IMG/VR virus record: IMGVR_UViG_3300010885_056921
Location: 1 to 40,471 of that record
From: a virus
Length of the DNA: 40,471 bases
Strand: one strand, 5' to 3'
In this document: positions 1 through 40,471 of the stretch, piece after piece
Layout: each line of letters begins with the position of its first letter
How positions within the stretch are numbered: the first letter of the stretch is position 1
Made by a program: the position numbers and the translations under genes
Notes under the pieces: generated by a model
The model's database searches: none
The model's input: only the letters and a program-made list of their open reading frames with translations
What the model was told of the DNA's origin: nothing

Positions 1-207
1 GTACATTACAAGATTGAAAGTATAGTGATCTTTCTCTTCATTATATTTTACATTAAACTGCGGCTGCATGTCAAGAACGGGAACATAACCTTTGTCTCGC
101 ATTTGCTGGACTAAAAGTCTTTCGTAGTTTTCTCTTGAACTTTGAAAAATAGAATCATCTTTAATAACTCCATTCATCCAAAAATCATGTATTTTACGTG
201 GATACAT
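1..207 (-). CDS. Hypothetical protein, N-terminal part (runs off left edge)
   Basis: I read an open frame of 69 codons from an ATG at 207 to the window edge without a stop. It begins MYPRKIHDFW and is rich in charged and aromatic residues. No domain is recognisable. An AAGGA ribosome site lies about 13 bases upstream; an in-frame GTG six bases before the ATG is an alternative start. A TGA-TATAAT extended -10 box lies 22 bases upstream, inside an 18-base palindrome, so the gene probably has its own, possibly repressor-controlled, promoter separate from the helicase that precedes it. Function unknown; position next to the helicase suggests a DNA-metabolism role, which is only inference. Confidence 0.7.
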   Translation of the reverse strand, partial: MYPRKIHDFWMNGVIKDDSIFQSSRENYERLLVQQMRDKGYVPVLDMQPQFNVKYNEEKDHYTFNLVMY

Positions 208-25219: not shown

Positions 25220-25621
25220 TTAAGCGTAGTACTCTTGCGCCTCACGGGGAGTTGCAAGGCGAAAACCCGCCTCTGTATCAAAAATGCTTTGAGCTTCTTT
25301 TTCTGACATTGCCAGAAATGGGTGCTCCTGTGTAAATGTATATACTCCAACTTGATAAGAATGGTTATTTCGTTCCATTTTTACAAGTACTTGATTTGAT
25401 GTCTTTGACATAATTTTCTTTTCTCTCTTTTGTTTTTCAGATTCTGGAACCTTAATATCTTGTTTTTCAGCAGTATCAAACTTATTATACATTTGATAAG
25501 TAATGCCTTCTTCTTCAAGGGCAGCAATGATTTCTGATTTTGTCTTTAATTCAGATGCATCAATAGCAAATGAATCTGCAACCTTTTTTAGTTCTGTAAT
25601 TTTTAGATCTGTAAATGACAT
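25220..25621 (-). CDS. Small head protein with SAP-like N-terminal domain
   Basis: 133 residues from ATG 25621, chosen for GAGAGGAAG just upstream; an ATG at 25639 would place the start only five bases after the -10 box and is the alternative. The first 40 residues, DLKITELKKVADSFAIDASE then LKTKSEIIAALEEEGI, form a SAP/HeH-like helix-extended-helix, a nucleic-acid-binding fold common in the small gene after the capsid gene. The C-terminal half (VLVKMERNNHSYQVGVYTF) is a small beta domain. It probably joins the capsid-connector interface; precise role unknown. Confidence 0.75.
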   Translation of the reverse strand: MSFTDLKITELKKVADSFAIDASELKTKSEIIAALEEEGITYQMYNKFDTAEKQDIKVPESEKQKREKKIMSKTSNQVLVKMERNNHSYQVGVYTFTQEHPFLAMSEKEAQSIFDTEAGFRLATPREAQEYYA

Positions 25622-25644
25622 TTGACTTCCTCTCGTCATTGTTA

Positions 25645-25653
25645 ATTATATCA
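25645..25653 (-). promoter_or_regulatory. Extended -10 promoter after the capsid gene
   Basis: Minus strand TGA followed by TATAAT (25645-25650). It follows the capsid terminator and would start transcription near 25638, giving a leader of about 17 bases to the SAP-like gene. No -35 box is evident. Confidence 0.58.
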
Positions 25654-26886: not shown

Positions 26887-27405
26887 TTATATGCTAGAAG
26901 CACTGAGGAAAGCACCTTGCCATATACTTTGTTTTGGTTTTGTTTGACCCATTGGAGCGTCAACTCCGATGGACTTCTGAACTGCAGTAGCTGATTCAAA
27001 AGACTTGAGTTGATGATCAACATACTCAATCTTTCCGAACATGTCAGTTACTGACTTATTTAGTGCTTCATACTTTGAAACGAGTTCTTCATTTGCCTTT
27101 GAAATATCCTCATATCCCTTTGACAAACGTGCCATTTCAGCACGTGTTTCGTTTACAATGTTGTACATGTCCTGTACTGTTGCTGCGTGAGTAGCATAAT
27201 TAGTATTGGACTTTTCTAGTGACTCACCAAAGAAGGTCTTAAGGTCTGAGACCATCTTCTCAAAATCAAGTGTATCTTCAACTTCAGAGATATCTGCAGC
27301 CTTTTCAACTGTAGTATCTGTAGTTTCTGAAACAGATGAAGCTTCTTCGGCTGGAGTCTCTACATCAATTGACTTCTCAATTGTTGTATCTGTATCTTCT
27401 GCCAT
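26887..27405 (-). CDS. Nested scaffold protein (internal in-frame start)
   Basis: An ATG at 27405, codon 305 of the protease frame, is preceded by a perfect AAGGAGGT (27412-27419) with six bases between. It would give a separate 172-residue scaffold beginning MAEDTDTTIEKSIDV. This is the lambda C/Nu3 arrangement. The codon style changes at the same point: the scaffold part has more C-ending codons and higher G+C, like the capsid gene, while the protease part is A+T-rich. Both facts suggest strong independent translation. Confidence 0.78.
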   Translation of the reverse strand: MAEDTDTTIEKSIDVETPAEEASSVSETTDTTVEKAADISEVEDTLDFEKMVSDLKTFFGESLEKSNTNYATHAATVQDMYNIVNETRAEMARLSKGYEDISKANEELVSKYEALNKSVTDMFGKIEYVDHQLKSFESATAVQKSIGVDAPMGQTKPKQSIWQGAFLSASSI

Positions 27406-28317
27406 TTTATTACCTCCTTGTGTGAGCGAAATTTCTTCACTCTTTTTAAGTCCGTTTTCAAACGTGACTTTTTTATTGCTATTTTGATCAGGATAAAGAT
27501 TAATTGTAGCGTTACTATCAATTACATTCCCTGCCAAACCTGGAGCAGCTGTTTCGCCAGCGGCATGAGCGGATGTTGGAGCATCATCTTTTTTAAAATA
27601 AGAATCAATTACTTTTTCAATTGCTTCAAATTTTTCTGAATCTGTTTGTTCAACCCAACCAATATTTATCATTGGTGCATCACAAACAACACAATCTTTT
27701 GACATTGCTTCTGATGTTGAAGCAACTTCATCTTGCTTACACCAATAAACATTTTCCAAGAGAATATCTGCAATCATTCCTTTAATAAAAGAAGATCCAT
27801 CTGTATTTTTTTCAATAGAAAAAAAATTAGCTAACTGATTTGCTGGGGAATCTACAAGACTTAATTCATGCAAATCATAATCGTGTATAACACGACGAGA
27901 TTCTGTATCTCCTTCTGTTTTTTCCATTTTTGCGTTATTTATGTTCCCGCCAATAGAAAATCCCGAATATGTACCATCAAGGCATTTTTCCCAGGCATCC
28001 TGTGCACCTTTTGAAATATAAGCAGTTACATAAACTCCATTATACTTTTTCTGTGTTTCTGGATCAAAAAATGTGTCATGTTTAAATTTAACCATTTTGC
28101 CAACTGCTGTTGGTCCGTGCATTTCACGAATATTGCCCCTAAATCTTTCAAAGGCTTTTTTGTTTGCATCAGCCGTTACAATATCGCCATGACGATCAAC
28201 ATTGTCCAGTGAAGCAAATCCAGATACTAGTCTTTTTTGCTTATCAACTTTAGTGATGGGAAAATGAAGCGATGTTGAAGATTCGCTATTTTGCCAATAA
28301 GTTTTTTGAATATCCAT
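26887..28317 (-). CDS. Prohead protease fused to scaffold
   Basis: 476 residues. The first 170 have the marks of the HK97-type (S78/U35) prohead protease: SGFASLDNVDRHGDIVTADA near 32-51, the catalytic-type histidine in REMHGP near 67, a TYSGFSIGG serine segment near 116-124, and HELSLVDSPAN near 150-160. A linker with C-x-x-C (DCVVCDAP) follows. The last 170 residues are acidic and then coiled coil (YNIVNETRAEMARLSKGYED), the scaffold part, which also has its own start at 27405. The ATG at 28317 follows a TGC-TATTAT box by ten bases, so the leader is almost absent. Confidence 0.88.
   Translation of the reverse strand: MDIQKTYWQNSESSTSLHFPITKVDKQKRLVSGFASLDNVDRHGDIVTADANKKAFERFRGNIREMHGPTAVGKMVKFKHDTFFDPETQKKYNGVYVTAYISKGAQDAWEKCLDGTYSGFSIGGNINNAKMEKTEGDTESRRVIHDYDLHELSLVDSPANQLANFFSIEKNTDGSSFIKGMIADILLENVYWCKQDEVASTSEAMSKDCVVCDAPMINIGWVEQTDSEKFEAIEKVIDSYFKKDDAPTSAHAAGETAAPGLAGNVIDSNATINLYPDQNSNKKVTFENGLKKSEEISLTQGGNKMAEDTDTTIEKSIDVETPAEEASSVSETTDTTVEKAADISEVEDTLDFEKMVSDLKTFFGESLEKSNTNYATHAATVQDMYNIVNETRAEMARLSKGYEDISKANEELVSKYEALNKSVTDMFGKIEYVDHQLKSFESATAVQKSIGVDAPMGQTKPKQSIWQGAFLSASSI
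27405..27419 (-). promoter_or_regulatory. Internal ribosome site AAGGAGGT for the nested scaffold
   Basis: AAGGAGGT (27412-27419), six bases, then ATG. In the long protein these bases encode Q-G-G-N-K-M. It is one of the best ribosome sites in the window. Confidence 0.8.
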
Positions 28318-28327
28318 ATGTAAATAA

Positions 28328-28336
28328 ATAATAGCA
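28328..28336 (-). promoter_or_regulatory. Extended -10 promoter before the protease/scaffold gene
   Basis: Minus strand TGC followed by TATTAT (28328-28333) in the 52-base gap. The ATG is ten bases past the box, so the transcript would have a leader of only three or four bases and no ribosome site. No -35 box is apparent. Confidence 0.55.
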
Positions 28337-28369
28337 GGATTTATAACTAACTCATAATTTTAGCAGATA

Positions 28370-29567: not shown

Positions 29568-31148
29568 TTAATTGCCTTCTTGAGGACCTTCACCTTTAGC
29601 ATTACGTGCAGTACCCATTTTATCTGGTGCATTTAATGTTCTATTTTGATCACGCTTTTTATTTCCACTTGCATCAGAGGCTGCATCTTGTTGTTGTTTT
29701 GGATTAAGAACAAGAACCGCATCTCCACCTTCAAGAGGAGCCATTCCACGACGTGAACGAACTTCATTTGGAGTAATAACTTGATCTTTAAGATAACGAT
29801 CATCAATTCGTGATTGAGTTTCTTCATCTGTAAGTGCAAGTTCATTAAATCTTAAAACAAATGCGTCTGTAAATTCTCTAATAATCAAGTTAATTTTAAA
29901 CTCAAGTTCTTCTTGACGTGGACGGCATACTTGCTCTTTAAATGTTTTATCTGCATCTTTAGCATTTGCCAAGGATACATTTGCAGGCATTCCAAGTTTT
30001 GATACTGGAACACGGTGTGAAAGAAGAATACGATCTCTATTTTCTACTGCATAATTTCTAAAAGAAGAGTCTTGAATTCCCGCTTCAATTGGCTCCATAT
30101 TAAACTCAACACGCCCTTGATCTCCATCTGATGGAAGGGGGATGTAAAGAGTTCTATGGTTTCTACCTTTTAATCCTGTTTGAAAAAATTCAAGTAATTT
30201 ACGTTCTGAATCAGCAGTAAGTTTTGCGCCTTTAACTGTGATAATGTAACGTGGAACAGCTTTATTTTCAAAGTAGTCTAAGTTAAAGCGTTGAGCGAAT
30301 TCATCACCAGCAACTGCATTTTTAGCAGACAATACATCGGGAACTCCGTAATATGTATTTGATGGGGTAAATACTTTAAAGTGAATAACTTCATTTGGTT
30401 GTGGATCAGTTCCAATTTGATCTGGAGTTTCTGTATCTCCAAAATTTCTAAAAAATGTATAGCGGTTATAGACAACTTGAACAAATCCATCACGGTGACG
30501 ACGGATACGCATTGTTGTAGTTGGAATATGACCAACATAACCAATCTTGCCCGTTGAAGTACGACCAATTTCCATATATGCATTTCCAGTAGATTCTAAG
30601 TCAATAAATATTTTTTTCATTGTTTCTGAAAATGAATCGTCTGAATTTAATGATTCTAAAAATTGACGTAAATTTTCTTTCATGCTTTCAATTTTTGAAC
30701 GCAATTTATCTAACTTTTTAGGGGTACTCATAACTTCTTCAATTTTTAAAGTAGTAGCCCATGTATTTTCAAATTTATATCCAAGTCCAGTAACATTTGC
30801 AGCTTTAGCATTTACTGCTGAATGATGATATGGAGAAACATCATAAAGTTGTGCTAAATAAAGAATGTTGTATGGAGGCTGAACAATTTGAAAAAGAGAA
30901 TATCCTGTAAGATCAAGTGGATCAAGTTTTTTAGATTTTGCATCATCTACGCCAGTAAATGATTTTTGAATTCTATTCACTTGACGGCGAAAATTAGGGC
31001 TTAATCCTTCAGATTTCTTAATGTCATCCCATGTTGCATTAAATGGATCAACAAAATCATTTTCTACTGTATGGATAGGGTTATCCATTTTAACGGTAAT
31101 CCCGCCCTCATCTTCATCAATGGAATCATCTATTTTTAAATTAGCCAA
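29568..31148 (-). CDS. Portal protein
   Basis: 526 residues, beginning at a TTG inside the last codons of the upstream gene, with GAGGGAG nine bases before it. Typical PBSX/HK97-type portal segments are visible: LTGYSLFQIVQPPYNILYLA, YHHSAVNAKAANVTGLGY, DLESTGNAYMEIGR, HFKVFTPSNTYYGVPDVLSA, and a polar C-terminal tail (residues 480-526) that is probably disordered. The dodecameric portal forms the DNA gate at one capsid vertex. No terminase is next to it; instead fibre genes precede it, which is an uncommon order. Confidence 0.92.
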   Translation of the reverse strand: MANLKIDDSIDEDEGGITVKMDNPIHTVENDFVDPFNATWDDIKKSEGLSPNFRRQVNRIQKSFTGVDDAKSKKLDPLDLTGYSLFQIVQPPYNILYLAQLYDVSPYHHSAVNAKAANVTGLGYKFENTWATTLKIEEVMSTPKKLDKLRSKIESMKENLRQFLESLNSDDSFSETMKKIFIDLESTGNAYMEIGRTSTGKIGYVGHIPTTTMRIRRHRDGFVQVVYNRYTFFRNFGDTETPDQIGTDPQPNEVIHFKVFTPSNTYYGVPDVLSAKNAVAGDEFAQRFNLDYFENKAVPRYIITVKGAKLTADSERKLLEFFQTGLKGRNHRTLYIPLPSDGDQGRVEFNMEPIEAGIQDSSFRNYAVENRDRILLSHRVPVSKLGMPANVSLANAKDADKTFKEQVCRPRQEELEFKINLIIREFTDAFVLRFNELALTDEETQSRIDDRYLKDQVITPNEVRSRRGMAPLEGGDAVLVLNPKQQQDAASDASGNKKRDQNRTLNAPDKMGTARNAKGEGPQEGN

Positions 31149-31479
31149 GTTTCATCTCCCTCATCTCTTTAATATAATCAAGCATAGCTGGCAGATCTTG
31201 TTCATCTGGAACTAAACCTAGTTCTAATCTTTGTTTTTGAATTTCAAGTTCTTCATCGTTTACTGGTCTATGACCTGCAAAAAATACTGGCTTTCCTTCA
31301 TTTAAACCATAATGATTTGCTGCATCCTTAAGTTTTTTAATTTGGCGTATGTCGCCCTTCATGGACGGGATACTTAGATACGCTCCAGTTTCATCTGTAA
31401 CAAGAGTATCATCTGGCATTTGCCAAGCATATAAACCCCAGTTTACTTCATCAATTGGTGTTACTTTCATTTTGCTCAT
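31141..31479 (-). CDS. Hypothetical protein preceding the portal
   Basis: 112 residues from ATG 31479 (MSKMKVTPID); the longer in-frame TTG at 31506 would use bases of the promoter itself. Segments: VNWGLYAWQMPDDTLVTDET, IRQIKKLKDAANHYGLNEGK and RLELGLVPDEQDLPAMLDYI. No family recognised. The ATG starts at the seventh base after a TATTAT box, so the mRNA is predicted to be leaderless. It overlaps the portal start by eight bases, suggesting translational coupling and perhaps a packaging or portal-assembly role. Confidence 0.8.
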   Translation of the reverse strand: MSKMKVTPIDEVNWGLYAWQMPDDTLVTDETGAYLSIPSMKGDIRQIKKLKDAANHYGLNEGKPVFFAGHRPVNDEELEIQKQRLELGLVPDEQDLPAMLDYIKEMREMKLG

Positions 31480-31485
31480 ATGCCA

Positions 31486-31494
31486 ATAATACCA
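31486..31494 (-). promoter_or_regulatory. Extended -10 promoter giving a leaderless head-operon mRNA
   Basis: Minus strand TGG followed by TATTAT (31486-31491); six bases later is the ATG of the pre-portal gene. A TTGACA is present but only nine bases upstream, too close to act as its -35. Confidence 0.62.
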
Positions 31495-31531
31495 CGTAAA
31501 TGTCAAAAATAGAACATTAGCCTGCCATTTT

Positions 31532-31605
31532 TAATAGGTATATTCGTATGTTATTACTGGCTGCCCGCCATTTATTGCCTTGTTTGCACGACATACTACC
31601 TATTA
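31532..31605. repeat. Nested inverted repeat with apical hairpin
   Basis: TAATAGGTA (31532-31540) and GTATGT (31546-31551) pair with ACATAC (31591-31596) and TACCTATTA (31597-31605), leaving a five-base bulge on one side. Inside, TGGC (31558-31561) pairs with GCCA (31567-31570). The right outer arm overlaps the TATAAT box of the promoter at 31602. No T-run follows on either strand. Confidence 0.65.
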
Positions 31606-31628
31606 TACCTTTAAACTAGGATTGTCTA
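31602..31628 (-). promoter_or_regulatory. Promoter candidate inside the structured gap
   Basis: Minus strand TAGACA (31623-31628), a short 15-base spacer, then TATAAT (31602-31607). Predicted start near 31595, so the RNA would begin within the inverted repeat, losing most of its left outer arm. Confidence 0.45.
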
Positions 31629-31645
31629 TAAAAACTTACTATGCG

Positions 31646-37210: not shown

Positions 37211-38677
37211 TTACCCCTCAAGCGCCAGTATATATGGTGTCATTATAGCAAATAGACTTTTATTAAAGGCTGTACCACTAATTGTACCCGAAGCTTGATT
37301 AATTACTAAATTGGGACCAATTTTGAAGTTTCCTTTTTGGTCTGTGCTGGTAAAGAATATTTGCCCTCCGCCACTTGTTACGGTTTCTGCATTTCCCGTA
37401 ATAAATTGTCCGCCTAATTGTGGCAAAGATGTTGCTGGATCTATTCCATATCCGCAATATTCAAAGGTATGCCCTGAAGCAACAATTCTACTATTTTGAT
37501 AAAATTTTGCGGTAGTACCAGATGAAATTGTTGTTGTTATATTTGATGTTAAGTTAATTGTTGCTCGGCCACCAGATAGCTGACTTGCAATACTATCTAT
37601 AGTGTAGTATGTTGTTCCATTATCAAATGTTACAACATTGTTTGCATATGGAGTTTGGCTTAAACCACTAATTACAACCGTTGAATCATTTATATTAATT
37701 GTATTTGCTGCTGTTCCTGAATATAATAAAGAACTTACTCCTGCTGCTTTTAAACCAATATTTCCAAAAGATGAATCTGATCCAATAAGGGAACAAAATC
37801 CTCCAGATTCGCAAAGAACTCCTACATCTGTAAAAATTGTATAAATAGAAACTAATTGTGCGTATCCTTGATTAACAATATGAATACCAGTTCCACCATA
37901 ATTAATTTGAGTATACTGACCAGCAACCATTGATTTATTTCCAGTTACTTTACTACCATCAATATACATTCCTTTGCCGCCAGTTGAAATTGATGAACAA
38001 TTATATACATAAGGGCTTCTTGTAATAGCCCCCGCAGAACCATTTGGATTATAAGATACTGCAGAAGCACCTGATGTATGACCTTTAAATGTAACTTCAG
38101 AAATGTATACACCATTGTTAAGATAAAAAATGTCAGAAGTTGTAGTTGATGGTCTAATAGTTACTGATCTTAAGCTATCACCAATAACTGAAACACCTGT
38201 AGGAATTGTAACTGGATTTACTTCTGTATACTCCCCGCTTTTTACAAAAACAGTTGTGCCATCAGTTGCAATTGCAAGTGCTGCTTTAATTGTTAAAAAT
38301 GCTGATCCAATTGTTGTTCCATCATTTCCATCATTTCCAGTTTTAGCAACATATAAAACTTTTGTTGTAGCATTTGCTACACCCGAAGATCCCTGAATTC
38401 CTTGCACACCTTGTATGCCTTGAACACTATATCCTTGTATACCTTGAACACCTTGAACACTATATCCTTGTATACCTTGAAAACCTTGTACACCTTGAAC
38501 GCCTTGTATACCTTGTAAACCTTTTGGTCCTTTATTTAACGATAGATATGCATCAAGTTCTGATGCCAAACGAAAAATATCTCTAGGAACGTCTGGGGAG
38601 TCCGTGTAGGCGGGATAATTAAACTGTGCTCCAGAAACGGTTTGAAGATTACTAGTATAACTGTATGTAGGACTCAT
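37211..38677 (-). CDS. Tail fibre / depolymerase-like protein with collagen-like tract and beta helix
   Basis: 488 residues from ATG 38677; a TTG six codons earlier would lie in the promoter. Residues about 47-97 are Gly-x-x repeats ([16 protein letters not shown]). From about 105 on is a right-handed parallel beta helix of the pectate-lyase type: LYVAKTGNDGNDGTTIGSAF, VFVKSGEYTEVNPVTIP, GVYISEVTFKGHTSG, GKGMYIDGSKVTGNKS. Such helices bind or cut polysaccharides; no catalytic residues could be assigned. The same collagen-like motif occurs in the giant fibre, suggesting shared origin. Its mRNA is probably almost leaderless. Confidence 0.85.
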   Translation of the reverse strand: MSPTYSYTSNLQTVSGAQFNYPAYTDSPDVPRDIFRLASELDAYLSLNKGPKGLQGIQGVQGVQGFQGIQGYSVQGVQGIQGYSVQGIQGVQGIQGSSGVANATTKVLYVAKTGNDGNDGTTIGSAFLTIKAALAIATDGTTVFVKSGEYTEVNPVTIPTGVSVIGDSLRSVTIRPSTTTSDIFYLNNGVYISEVTFKGHTSGASAVSYNPNGSAGAITRSPYVYNCSSISTGGKGMYIDGSKVTGNKSMVAGQYTQINYGGTGIHIVNQGYAQLVSIYTIFTDVGVLCESGGFCSLIGSDSSFGNIGLKAAGVSSLLYSGTAANTININDSTVVISGLSQTPYANNVVTFDNGTTYYTIDSIASQLSGGRATINLTSNITTTISSGTTAKFYQNSRIVASGHTFEYCGYGIDPATSLPQLGGQFITGNAETVTSGGGQIFFTSTDQKGNFKIGPNLVINQASGTISGTAFNKSLFAIMTPYILALEG

Positions 38678-38685
38678 ATGGTATA

Positions 38686-38694
38686 AGTATACCA
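38686..38694 (-). promoter_or_regulatory. Extended -10 promoter before the beta-helix fibre
   Basis: Minus strand TGG followed by TATACT (38686-38691). The ATG lies eight bases after the box, leaving at most a base or two of leader. No ribosome site is present. No suitable -35 box. Confidence 0.6.
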
Positions 38695-38724
38695 AAATAT
38701 TAAATAAAAGCGTTTATTCAATAT

Positions 38725-39279: not shown

Positions 39280-40276
39280 ATGATATTGCCTCCTGTATCA
39301 TTTCTTCTATTAATGTATTTGTAATTTTAAGTACAAAAGCTGCATTATCGCTAAACCCAAATGTTAATAATAAATTATCATCTAGTACCGCCGCACCAGA
39401 ACAAAATTCAACACATGCATCTAAAAATGAAAACTTTTCTGGTGATAAACCAATTAAATTATAATTTTCATCAAAAACACAAAGTCTATGTCGGTATAAT
39501 CCATTTTTTTGATTAAGGTAGTTATTCCATAATCCAACTTCATGGGTTACAGAAAGATAATAATTATTCCAACGAACTAACTGAGTCCCGCCTCTTTGAT
39601 CTGCTGGAACATCAAATGTATTTGTTAGTGACACCTGCTCACATCGGGCGGGAAGTTCTGGATAAGTTCTTACAATTTCTGTAGGTGCAGTCCATTTAAC
39701 AAAATGATATGGTTTGTCTAATATTGGGTACCAATTTTTTTCACAATATGATTCATCAGTTCCTGGGGCTGGAATTCTTAAACGAGATATTTCTTTGGCT
39801 GTCCATTTATCTTTATTTATTTCAATTTCAGATAATTCCATACGACCTTGACCGTTTTCAGTAGTATCTCTACGAACTCCTGCTAAATAATATTTGCCTT
39901 CCCATTTAACTAAACGTCCATCTTCTAATCCAACAAATTCCCAAAGGGGCGGGACGTCAAGAGCACTAGTATCAATTAAACAATAATCAGTCATATTTAA
40001 ATTTTTATCTAATCTACATAAATAATTATATGTTCTAAGATTCATATCTTTTTCTGGATGCAAATATGCTAAAGGTCCCCAAGGTGAAGGAAATTTCATA
40101 TTTTTTTCAGCATGATAAAGCGAATAATTAATATGTCTAAGATTGACAAGTATGTCGCCATCATCATCTATAAAAATGGCGGGATTTGTTAAGCCAGTTC
40201 CTTTAACTAATCCCTCTTTAATAACAATAGGGACTAATTTACCCCCAGCATTTATTGCTCTTTGAACTAAATTCAT
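39266..40276 (-). CDS. Five-bladed beta-propeller glycosidase-like protein (GH130/GH43-type)
   Basis: 336 residues. GLTNPAIFIDDDGDILVNLR near 28-47, then GLEDGRLVKWEGKYYLAGVR near 116-135, and later RGGTQLVRWNNYYLSVTH and FCSGAAVLDDNLLLTFGF, are blade signatures of GH43/62/130 propellers. In GH130 the related E-D-P-R holds the catalytic Asp; here it is E118-D119-G-R, so activity may be altered or the protein may be a non-catalytic binder. It could process mannose-type glycans on the host surface or on phage fibres. The ATG is the seventh base after TATAAT, with no ribosome site. Confidence 0.83.
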   Translation of the reverse strand: MNLVQRAINAGGKLVPIVIKEGLVKGTGLTNPAIFIDDDGDILVNLRHINYSLYHAEKNMKFPSPWGPLAYLHPEKDMNLRTYNYLCRLDKNLNMTDYCLIDTSALDVPPLWEFVGLEDGRLVKWEGKYYLAGVRRDTTENGQGRMELSEIEINKDKWTAKEISRLRIPAPGTDESYCEKNWYPILDKPYHFVKWTAPTEIVRTYPELPARCEQVSLTNTFDVPADQRGGTQLVRWNNYYLSVTHEVGLWNNYLNQKNGLYRHRLCVFDENYNLIGLSPEKFSFLDACVEFCSGAAVLDDNLLLTFGFSDNAAFVLKITNTLIEEMIQEAISYGNN

Positions 40277-40282
40277 ATACTG

Positions 40283-40288
40283 ATTATA
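40283..40288 (-). promoter_or_regulatory. -10 box giving a leaderless glycosidase-like mRNA
   Basis: Minus strand TATAAT (40283-40288), six bases, ATG (40276), identical spacing to the pre-portal promoter at 31.49 kb. It lies just after the stop of the upstream gene. It lacks the TGn element. Confidence 0.6.
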
Positions 40289-40290
40289 TA

Positions 40291-40471
40291 CTACTGAATA
40301 GGTTCTTGTAAAGTAAGTTGAGATGCTTGATTAATTAAAGCATTAATTTCTTCTTGAGTTAATCCCGCATCAATTAATTTTTGTGTACCAGAATTTACTG
40401 GATCTATAGGTGCGGGAGGTGTAAAAGTATTTGTTTCTTTATCATATGTCCATCCAATTCCCGCTGGATTA
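40291..40471 (-). CDS. C-terminal end of an unidentified (probably virion) protein
   Basis: 59 codons open from the right window edge to TAG at 40291. It reads PAGIGWTYDKETNTFTPPAP near the start of the fragment, then LIDAGLTQEEINALINQASQ and ends LQEPIQ. The 'GWTYD...F.PP' segment is a motif seen near the C-terminus of many short phage tail accessory proteins, so it is likely a tail or fibre accessory gene. The N-terminal part is outside the window. Confidence 0.75.
   Translation of the reverse strand, partial: NPAGIGWTYDKETNTFTPPAPIDPVNSGTQKLIDAGLTQEEINALINQASQLTLQEPIQ

Follow-up and report, generated by a model that had tools for sequence, protein, structure and literature searches.

Known and predicted leaderless promoters in bacteria and phages

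The cI gene of phage lambda, as transcribed from PRM, provides a phage mRNA that starts at its AUG, in an enterobacterial host with weak leaderless translation. Leaderless genes make up ~20% or more of the total in actinobacteria (PMC3160421, PMC3898074). Such messages are common and efficient in this phylum, and mycobacteria translate them well (PMC3160421, PMC3898074, PMC4633059). Leaderless genes of Mycobacterium tuberculosis, M. smegmatis and Streptomyces have a TAnnnT box ~7-12 bp before the transcript start and an ATG located at or within ~5 nt of that start, and they carry no Shine-Dalgarno (SD) sequence (PMC3898074, PMC4633059, PMC3160421). Leaderless SigA promoters have also been predicted in cluster O mycobacteriophages such as Corndog (PMC4351075) and for P90 of Adephagia (PMC11373665).

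Four sites in the DNA of a lake virus resemble the actinobacterial genes in their TAnnnT box, in the short predicted distance between +1 and the ATG and in the missing SD. They very likely represent leaderless or near-leaderless promoters in an actinobacterial phage, read by the host RNA polymerase together with its main sigma factor. Unlike the bacterial examples, they belong to a phage, have a recognisable -35 element and mostly carry TGn before the box, a feature of just 7% of the TAnnnT promoters of M. tuberculosis. The mycobacteriophage promoters are few and come from single phages or one cluster, whereas the arrangement described here can be followed through several genera at head genes that are orthologs, and its spacing is kept while the sequence changes. 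The contrast with lambda is one of both gene and host: a repressor gene in an enterobacterium there, virion genes of an actinophage here.

A putative actinophage from lake water

The window, by which we mean the whole stretch of DNA analysed, is a 40,471-base virus record that represents a fragment, with a GC content of 35% and all called genes on the - strand. Its portal protein is 52-54% identical over nearly the full length to those of Streptomyces phages of the Stanwilliamsviridae. The protease is 38-41% identical to theirs, again over nearly the full length, and also matches that of a Rhodococcus phage more weakly. The gene order (small gene, portal, protease, capsid) is common to the window and these relatives, and differs in that the window has an endolysin gene inserted between portal and protease. 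Judged by head-module homology and synteny, the lake virus, which is known from a 40-kb fragment, appears to be a Stanwilliamsviridae-like actinophage. The promoter region of its protease gene is present in ~75 lake viral contigs. An Rfam search of the window matched no RNA element.

The sequence-only reading offered no actinophage context. This context is now provided by the relatives, which carry WhiB and are Stanwilliamsviridae-like, a group whose hosts commonly use leaderless mRNA. WhiB, which has been called an actinophage marker (PMC10202952), is present in five of six long freshwater contigs, in contig C31 of G001 and in all ten cultured phages, and among 14 control genomes it is found only in Corynebacterium. 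The host is probably an actinobacterium, judging from WhiB in the long relatives and from head genes that are nearest to those of Streptomyces and Rhodococcus phages.

Contig C31 of G001 (L165) is an actinophage contig of 110 kb in which ARAGORN finds 22 tRNA genes, and it is filed in a cyanobacterium-named MAG. A cyanobacterial host was considered from this placement and rejected, since the sole WhiB gene of the 5.4-Mb bin is on the phage contig; for the same reason, the contig is probably misbinned. A phage sigma factor was likewise rejected as an explanation, because no sigma-70 region 2 (PF04542) was found in 14 freshwater contigs (several incomplete) or in 10 complete cultured phages.

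Four promoters that adjoin start codons

The four -10 boxes stand 6, 8, 6 and 10 nt before an ATG at 40.28, 38.69, 31.49 and 28.33 kb, respectively, all on the - strand (Table 1). These spacings were reported in the sequence-only reading and are confirmed from the sequence, as are the ATATG context without SD at all four start codons and the TGn that precedes three of the boxes (38.69, 31.49 and 28.33 kb, with none at 40.28 kb). At each site, the TAnnnT box would put +1 on the start codon or no more than 5 nt from it, as in a leaderless promoter.

Table 1. Promoter elements and associated genes in the window (positions of the whole stretch)
Feature	Positions	Strand	Remarks
Cargo gene, 336 aa	39266..40276	-	no Pfam/PHROG family; weak sequence match to PLL/PHL beta-propeller lectins
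Cargo -10 box TATAAT	40283..40288	-	6 nt before ATG at 40276
Cargo -35-like TTTACA	40307..40312	-	18 nt before -10 box
Fibre extended -10 box TGG TATACT	38686..38694	-	8 nt before ATG at 38677
Fibre -35 element GCTTT	38707..38711	-	exactly 15 nt before -10 box
Small head gene phrog_9394	31141..31479	-	directly before portal gene
Head extended -10 box TGG TATTAT	31486..31494	-	6 nt before ATG at 31479; 35/39 distinct relatives
Head maturation protease gene	26887..28317	-	phrog_9427, E 3e-116
Protease extended -10 box TGC TATTAT	28328..28336	-	10 nt before ATG at 28317; (nearly) invariant in 43 distinct relatives
Protease conserved 43-nt promoter block AAATTATGnnTTAtttATAAA-nnnTGnTATTATTTATTTACAT	28318..28360	-	kept in 43 distinct sequences
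Leadered extended -10 box TGA TATAAT	25645..25653	-	start codon 25621 behind GAGAGGAAG; kept with SD in relatives

Within the window alone, four genes without an SD have a -10 box at 6-10 nt compared with 1.34 in dinucleotide shuffles, and 209 of 5000 shuffles (about 4%) reach four such genes, an excess that is weak evidence in AT-rich DNA. This result, together with the low GC content and the frequency of non-SD genes (259 of the 706 genes pooled from eight contigs), would fit a reading in which TATAAT-like hexamers fall by chance near the starts of ordinary non-SD genes. Among the same 706 genes, box frequency peaks at 6 nt, where it reaches 2.27% compared with 0.36% at internal ATGs. That the sites exceed chance is established by their conservation in relatives, and not by the count in the window.

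The head gene site (31.49 kb)

The sequence at this site is TGG TATTAT-TGGCAT-ATG, and orthologs of the small head gene are assigned by synteny as Wakanda gp19, Beuffert gp22 and Karimac gp47. Of 39 distinct lake-phage sequences, 35 have an extended box at a distance of exactly 6 nt before the ATG, while most bases of the spacer vary among relatives and the genes upstream differ. The four remaining sequences comprise one with the box at 7 nt, one (L080) whose weaker box is in register with the others, one that is truncated, and one (L075) in which the promoter is absent and a GGAG SD is present instead. At this gene, promoter and SD are mutually exclusive. The encoded proteins have N-termini of three lengths among relatives (MKV, MxKMKV and MKPxxPMK), and because the 6-nt distance holds across all three, the box shifts with the start codon.

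In column profiles numbered relative to the A of the ATG, the box occupies -12 to -7 and TGn occupies -15 to -13; TGG was a selection criterion in these profiles, and was seen without selection in a separate comparison of relatives. Textbook spacing would give these positions if that A were +1.

The conservation pattern also bears on a reading in which the boxes are promoters whose ATGs are mainly translated from longer, SD-less read-through messages with unstructured, AT-rich leaders, such that the short distance simply reflects compact genomes. The genes are tightly packed on one strand, and upstream genes could be read through. However, the distance is not just short but fixed at 6 nt, it tracks start codons across N-terminal lengths, and the relative that has lost the promoter carries an SD. 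We consider this reading very improbable as the main explanation of the sites, although read-through from upstream genes could also supply some leadered messages in addition to leaderless ones.

A TTGACA located 9 nt before the box was evaluated as a -35 element and rejected, as its spacing is wrong and it is not kept in relatives. The intergenic stretch before the head gene (31480-31645) includes a possible ORF of 25 codons as well as an inverted repeat of the AGGTATA...TATACCT type. An adjoining stretch, TGGCAGnC...ATGTnC, recurs in relatives beside unrelated upstream genes, as if it were a cargo-boundary mark. In L075, an HNH-like reading frame is located directly upstream of the head gene.

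The protease site (28.33 kb)

The protease site has the sequence TGC TATTAT-TTATTTACAT-ATG. In relatives with <70% protein identity, the 43-nt promoter block retains 87% mean identity to the window's phage, compared with 55% identity at third positions of same-residue codons. The protease promoter is conserved far beyond synonymous sites. The predicted RNA begins 5'-ACAUAUG, with +1 at the A of ACATATG, which would leave a leader of about 4 nt. An RNA with this probable leader may differ in behaviour from a truly leaderless one.

The tail fibre site (38.69 kb)

This site has the sequence TGG TATACT-TATACCAT-ATG and opens a gene for a collagen-like tail fibre. In one relative (L168), the fibre gene has retained TTTTGGTATAAT at a distance of 8 nt and has a spacer of another sequence, and the fibre genes of G001C31 and G002 are arranged likewise, a comparison that involves few relatives.

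The cargo gene site (40.28 kb)

The sequence at this site is TATAAT-CAGTAT-ATG. Its gene was previously called a glycosidase, an assignment that is not supported, as the gene has no Pfam or PHROG match and a weak lectin-like match is seen instead (Table 1). The gene has over 200 viral relatives. Among 39 distinct upstream 25-mers, TATAAT (≤1 mismatch) is located at 6 nt in 14 and at 7 nt in 4, compared with 0-2 boxes at every other distance, and the contexts are varied. The relatives have TTTACA or TAGACA at the -35 position. Other copies of the gene stand behind other genes and have no box, and one group of relatives starts with GTG. The proposal of a leaderless or near-leaderless promoter family is supported, with the distance between -10 box and ATG fixed across relatives at both the head and cargo genes.

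The same arrangement in cultured actinophages

A search for the arrangement in related phages, as the sequence-only reading had suggested, finds it at the same two head genes of cultured actinophages. In ten cultured phages (nine of Streptomyces and one of Rhodococcus), the small head gene has a TAnnnT box at a distance of 6-7 nt from its ATG. A TAnnnT box also precedes the protease ATG at 6 nt, or at 9 nt in the Rhodococcus phage, and the capsid gene has a strong SD. Members of the Stanwilliamsviridae (Karimac, Wakanda, Beuffert, TunaTartare, Tomas and others) are like the window in the two head genes, the box at 6-7 nt and the absence of an SD. They differ in that their late starts have TTTGC as the -35 element, whereas the window group has nnGCnTT, and in their spacer sequences. 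We found no published description of leaderless late gene starts in the Stanwilliamsviridae.

The pattern TTTGC-N17..19-TAnnnT-N6/7-ATG occurs 31 times along the gene strand, has no match on the opposite strand and scores 2 in the reversed control, and because it was drawn partly from those same sites, it describes recurrence rather than providing an independent test. This strand bias, the spacing held in lake relatives while the spacer varies, the recurrence of the arrangement at these genes of Streptomyces phages, and the strong conservation of the protease block all stand against a chance origin, which is already refuted for the head and protease sites and which we regard as extremely improbable for the set.

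For the small head gene of Tomas (L247, near 462) and NootNoot (L248, near 435), the start given in the annotation is not the ATG found 6 nt after the box. The annotated starts are likely errors in public records, and we reassign them here.

Promoters with leaders

Not every block begins in the way that the sequence-only reading proposed. Four blocks do appear to open with leaderless or near-leaderless starts, whereas others use extended -10 promoters followed by a leader and SD, including those before 25621, 21485, 10939, 4954 and perhaps 37205. An in-frame ATG at 25639 was evaluated as a fifth leaderless start and rejected, as it is not conserved, whereas the SD-led ATG at 25621 is. The 25639 ATG is the start of the longest ORF and lies 5 nt after the -10 box, and automatic calling picks this wrong start.

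The same reading suggested that leaderless starts could favour 70S initiation, or an escape from SD competition, late in infection. The sites do open virion blocks, and 70S ribosomes are believed to act on leaderless messages (PMC4633059). Against this, leaderless starts behind TTGACA-like promoters are found away from virion genes in relatives too, some block promoters are leadered, and the capsid genes use an SD. Because leaderless starts occur off virion genes and the inferred hosts are actinobacterial, such a late purpose is not needed, and we find it improbable.

The -35 elements and a possible regulator

None of the sites was originally credited with a convincing -35 element. This is incorrect for three of them, which have TTTACA (40.28 kb), CGCTTT (38.69 kb) and GAGTT (28.33 kb), the latter two in a 15-nt register; the head site itself is degenerate. 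The fibre, head and protease promoters of freshwater relatives carry GCnTT at a distance of exactly 15 nt upstream of the box. A scan for GCnTT-N12-TGn-TAnnnT-(5..11)-ATG, which was run after examples were seen, gave 9 matches at a gap of 15, compared with 0-3 at other gaps and 1 in a reversed-sequence control. Because they share this -35 variant, the fibre, head and protease promoters probably form one co-regulated late class. That a phage WhiB aids recognition of the shared -35 is speculation.

It is possible, though unlikely, that these late promoters need a phage regulator (WhiB acting on the host sigma factor, or another activator) to use the GCnTT or TTTGC element, in which case the leaderless starts would be a by-product. 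This idea is compatible with host-read leaderless promoters. It would account for the shared -35 at a fixed 15-nt gap, for a conserved 43-nt block that exceeds a bare promoter, and for WhiB being present throughout while a phage sigma factor was not found in the contigs and phages searched. However, actinophages generally carry WhiB, which also acts in other roles, and leaderless starts are seen as well at genes with TTTACA or TTGACA promoters, the cargo gene among them. A more specific version, which seems rather unlikely to us, is that the fibre, head and protease promoters are a phage-specific late class (GCnTT-N12-TGn-TAnnnT) that requires phage WhiB on the host sigma factor, with the fusion to the start codon coupling regulated late transcription to leaderless translation as one inherited module across soil and lake actinophages.

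Proposed mechanism

If the four sites are host-read leaderless or near-leaderless promoters, then the host RNA polymerase, directed by its main sigma factor, would read a mostly extended -10 box plus a -35 element, and transcription would start 7-9 nt downstream of the -10 box. The mRNA would begin at the AUG itself at 31.49 and 40.28 kb, and 2-4 nt before the AUG at 38.69 and 28.33 kb. The actinobacterial ribosome would then initiate on the 5'-terminal AUG without a Shine-Dalgarno sequence. What the comparison shows is the architecture, its conservation, the mutual exclusion of promoter and SD at the head gene and the fact that the group consists of actinophages. What we infer is where exactly transcripts start, that the sigma factor comes from the host, and that the real host initiates leaderlessly.

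Significance

Since actinobacteria themselves often use such messages, the arrangement appears to be a known strategy that is well conserved rather than a new one. Comparison alone suggests that leaderless starts of virion genes are old in a large actinophage group, old enough for the distance between the -10 box and the ATG to have been kept while the DNA around it changed. The analysis also corrects start codons in public records, and it points to a -35 element (GCnTT or TTTGC) that late promoters of these phages appear to share.
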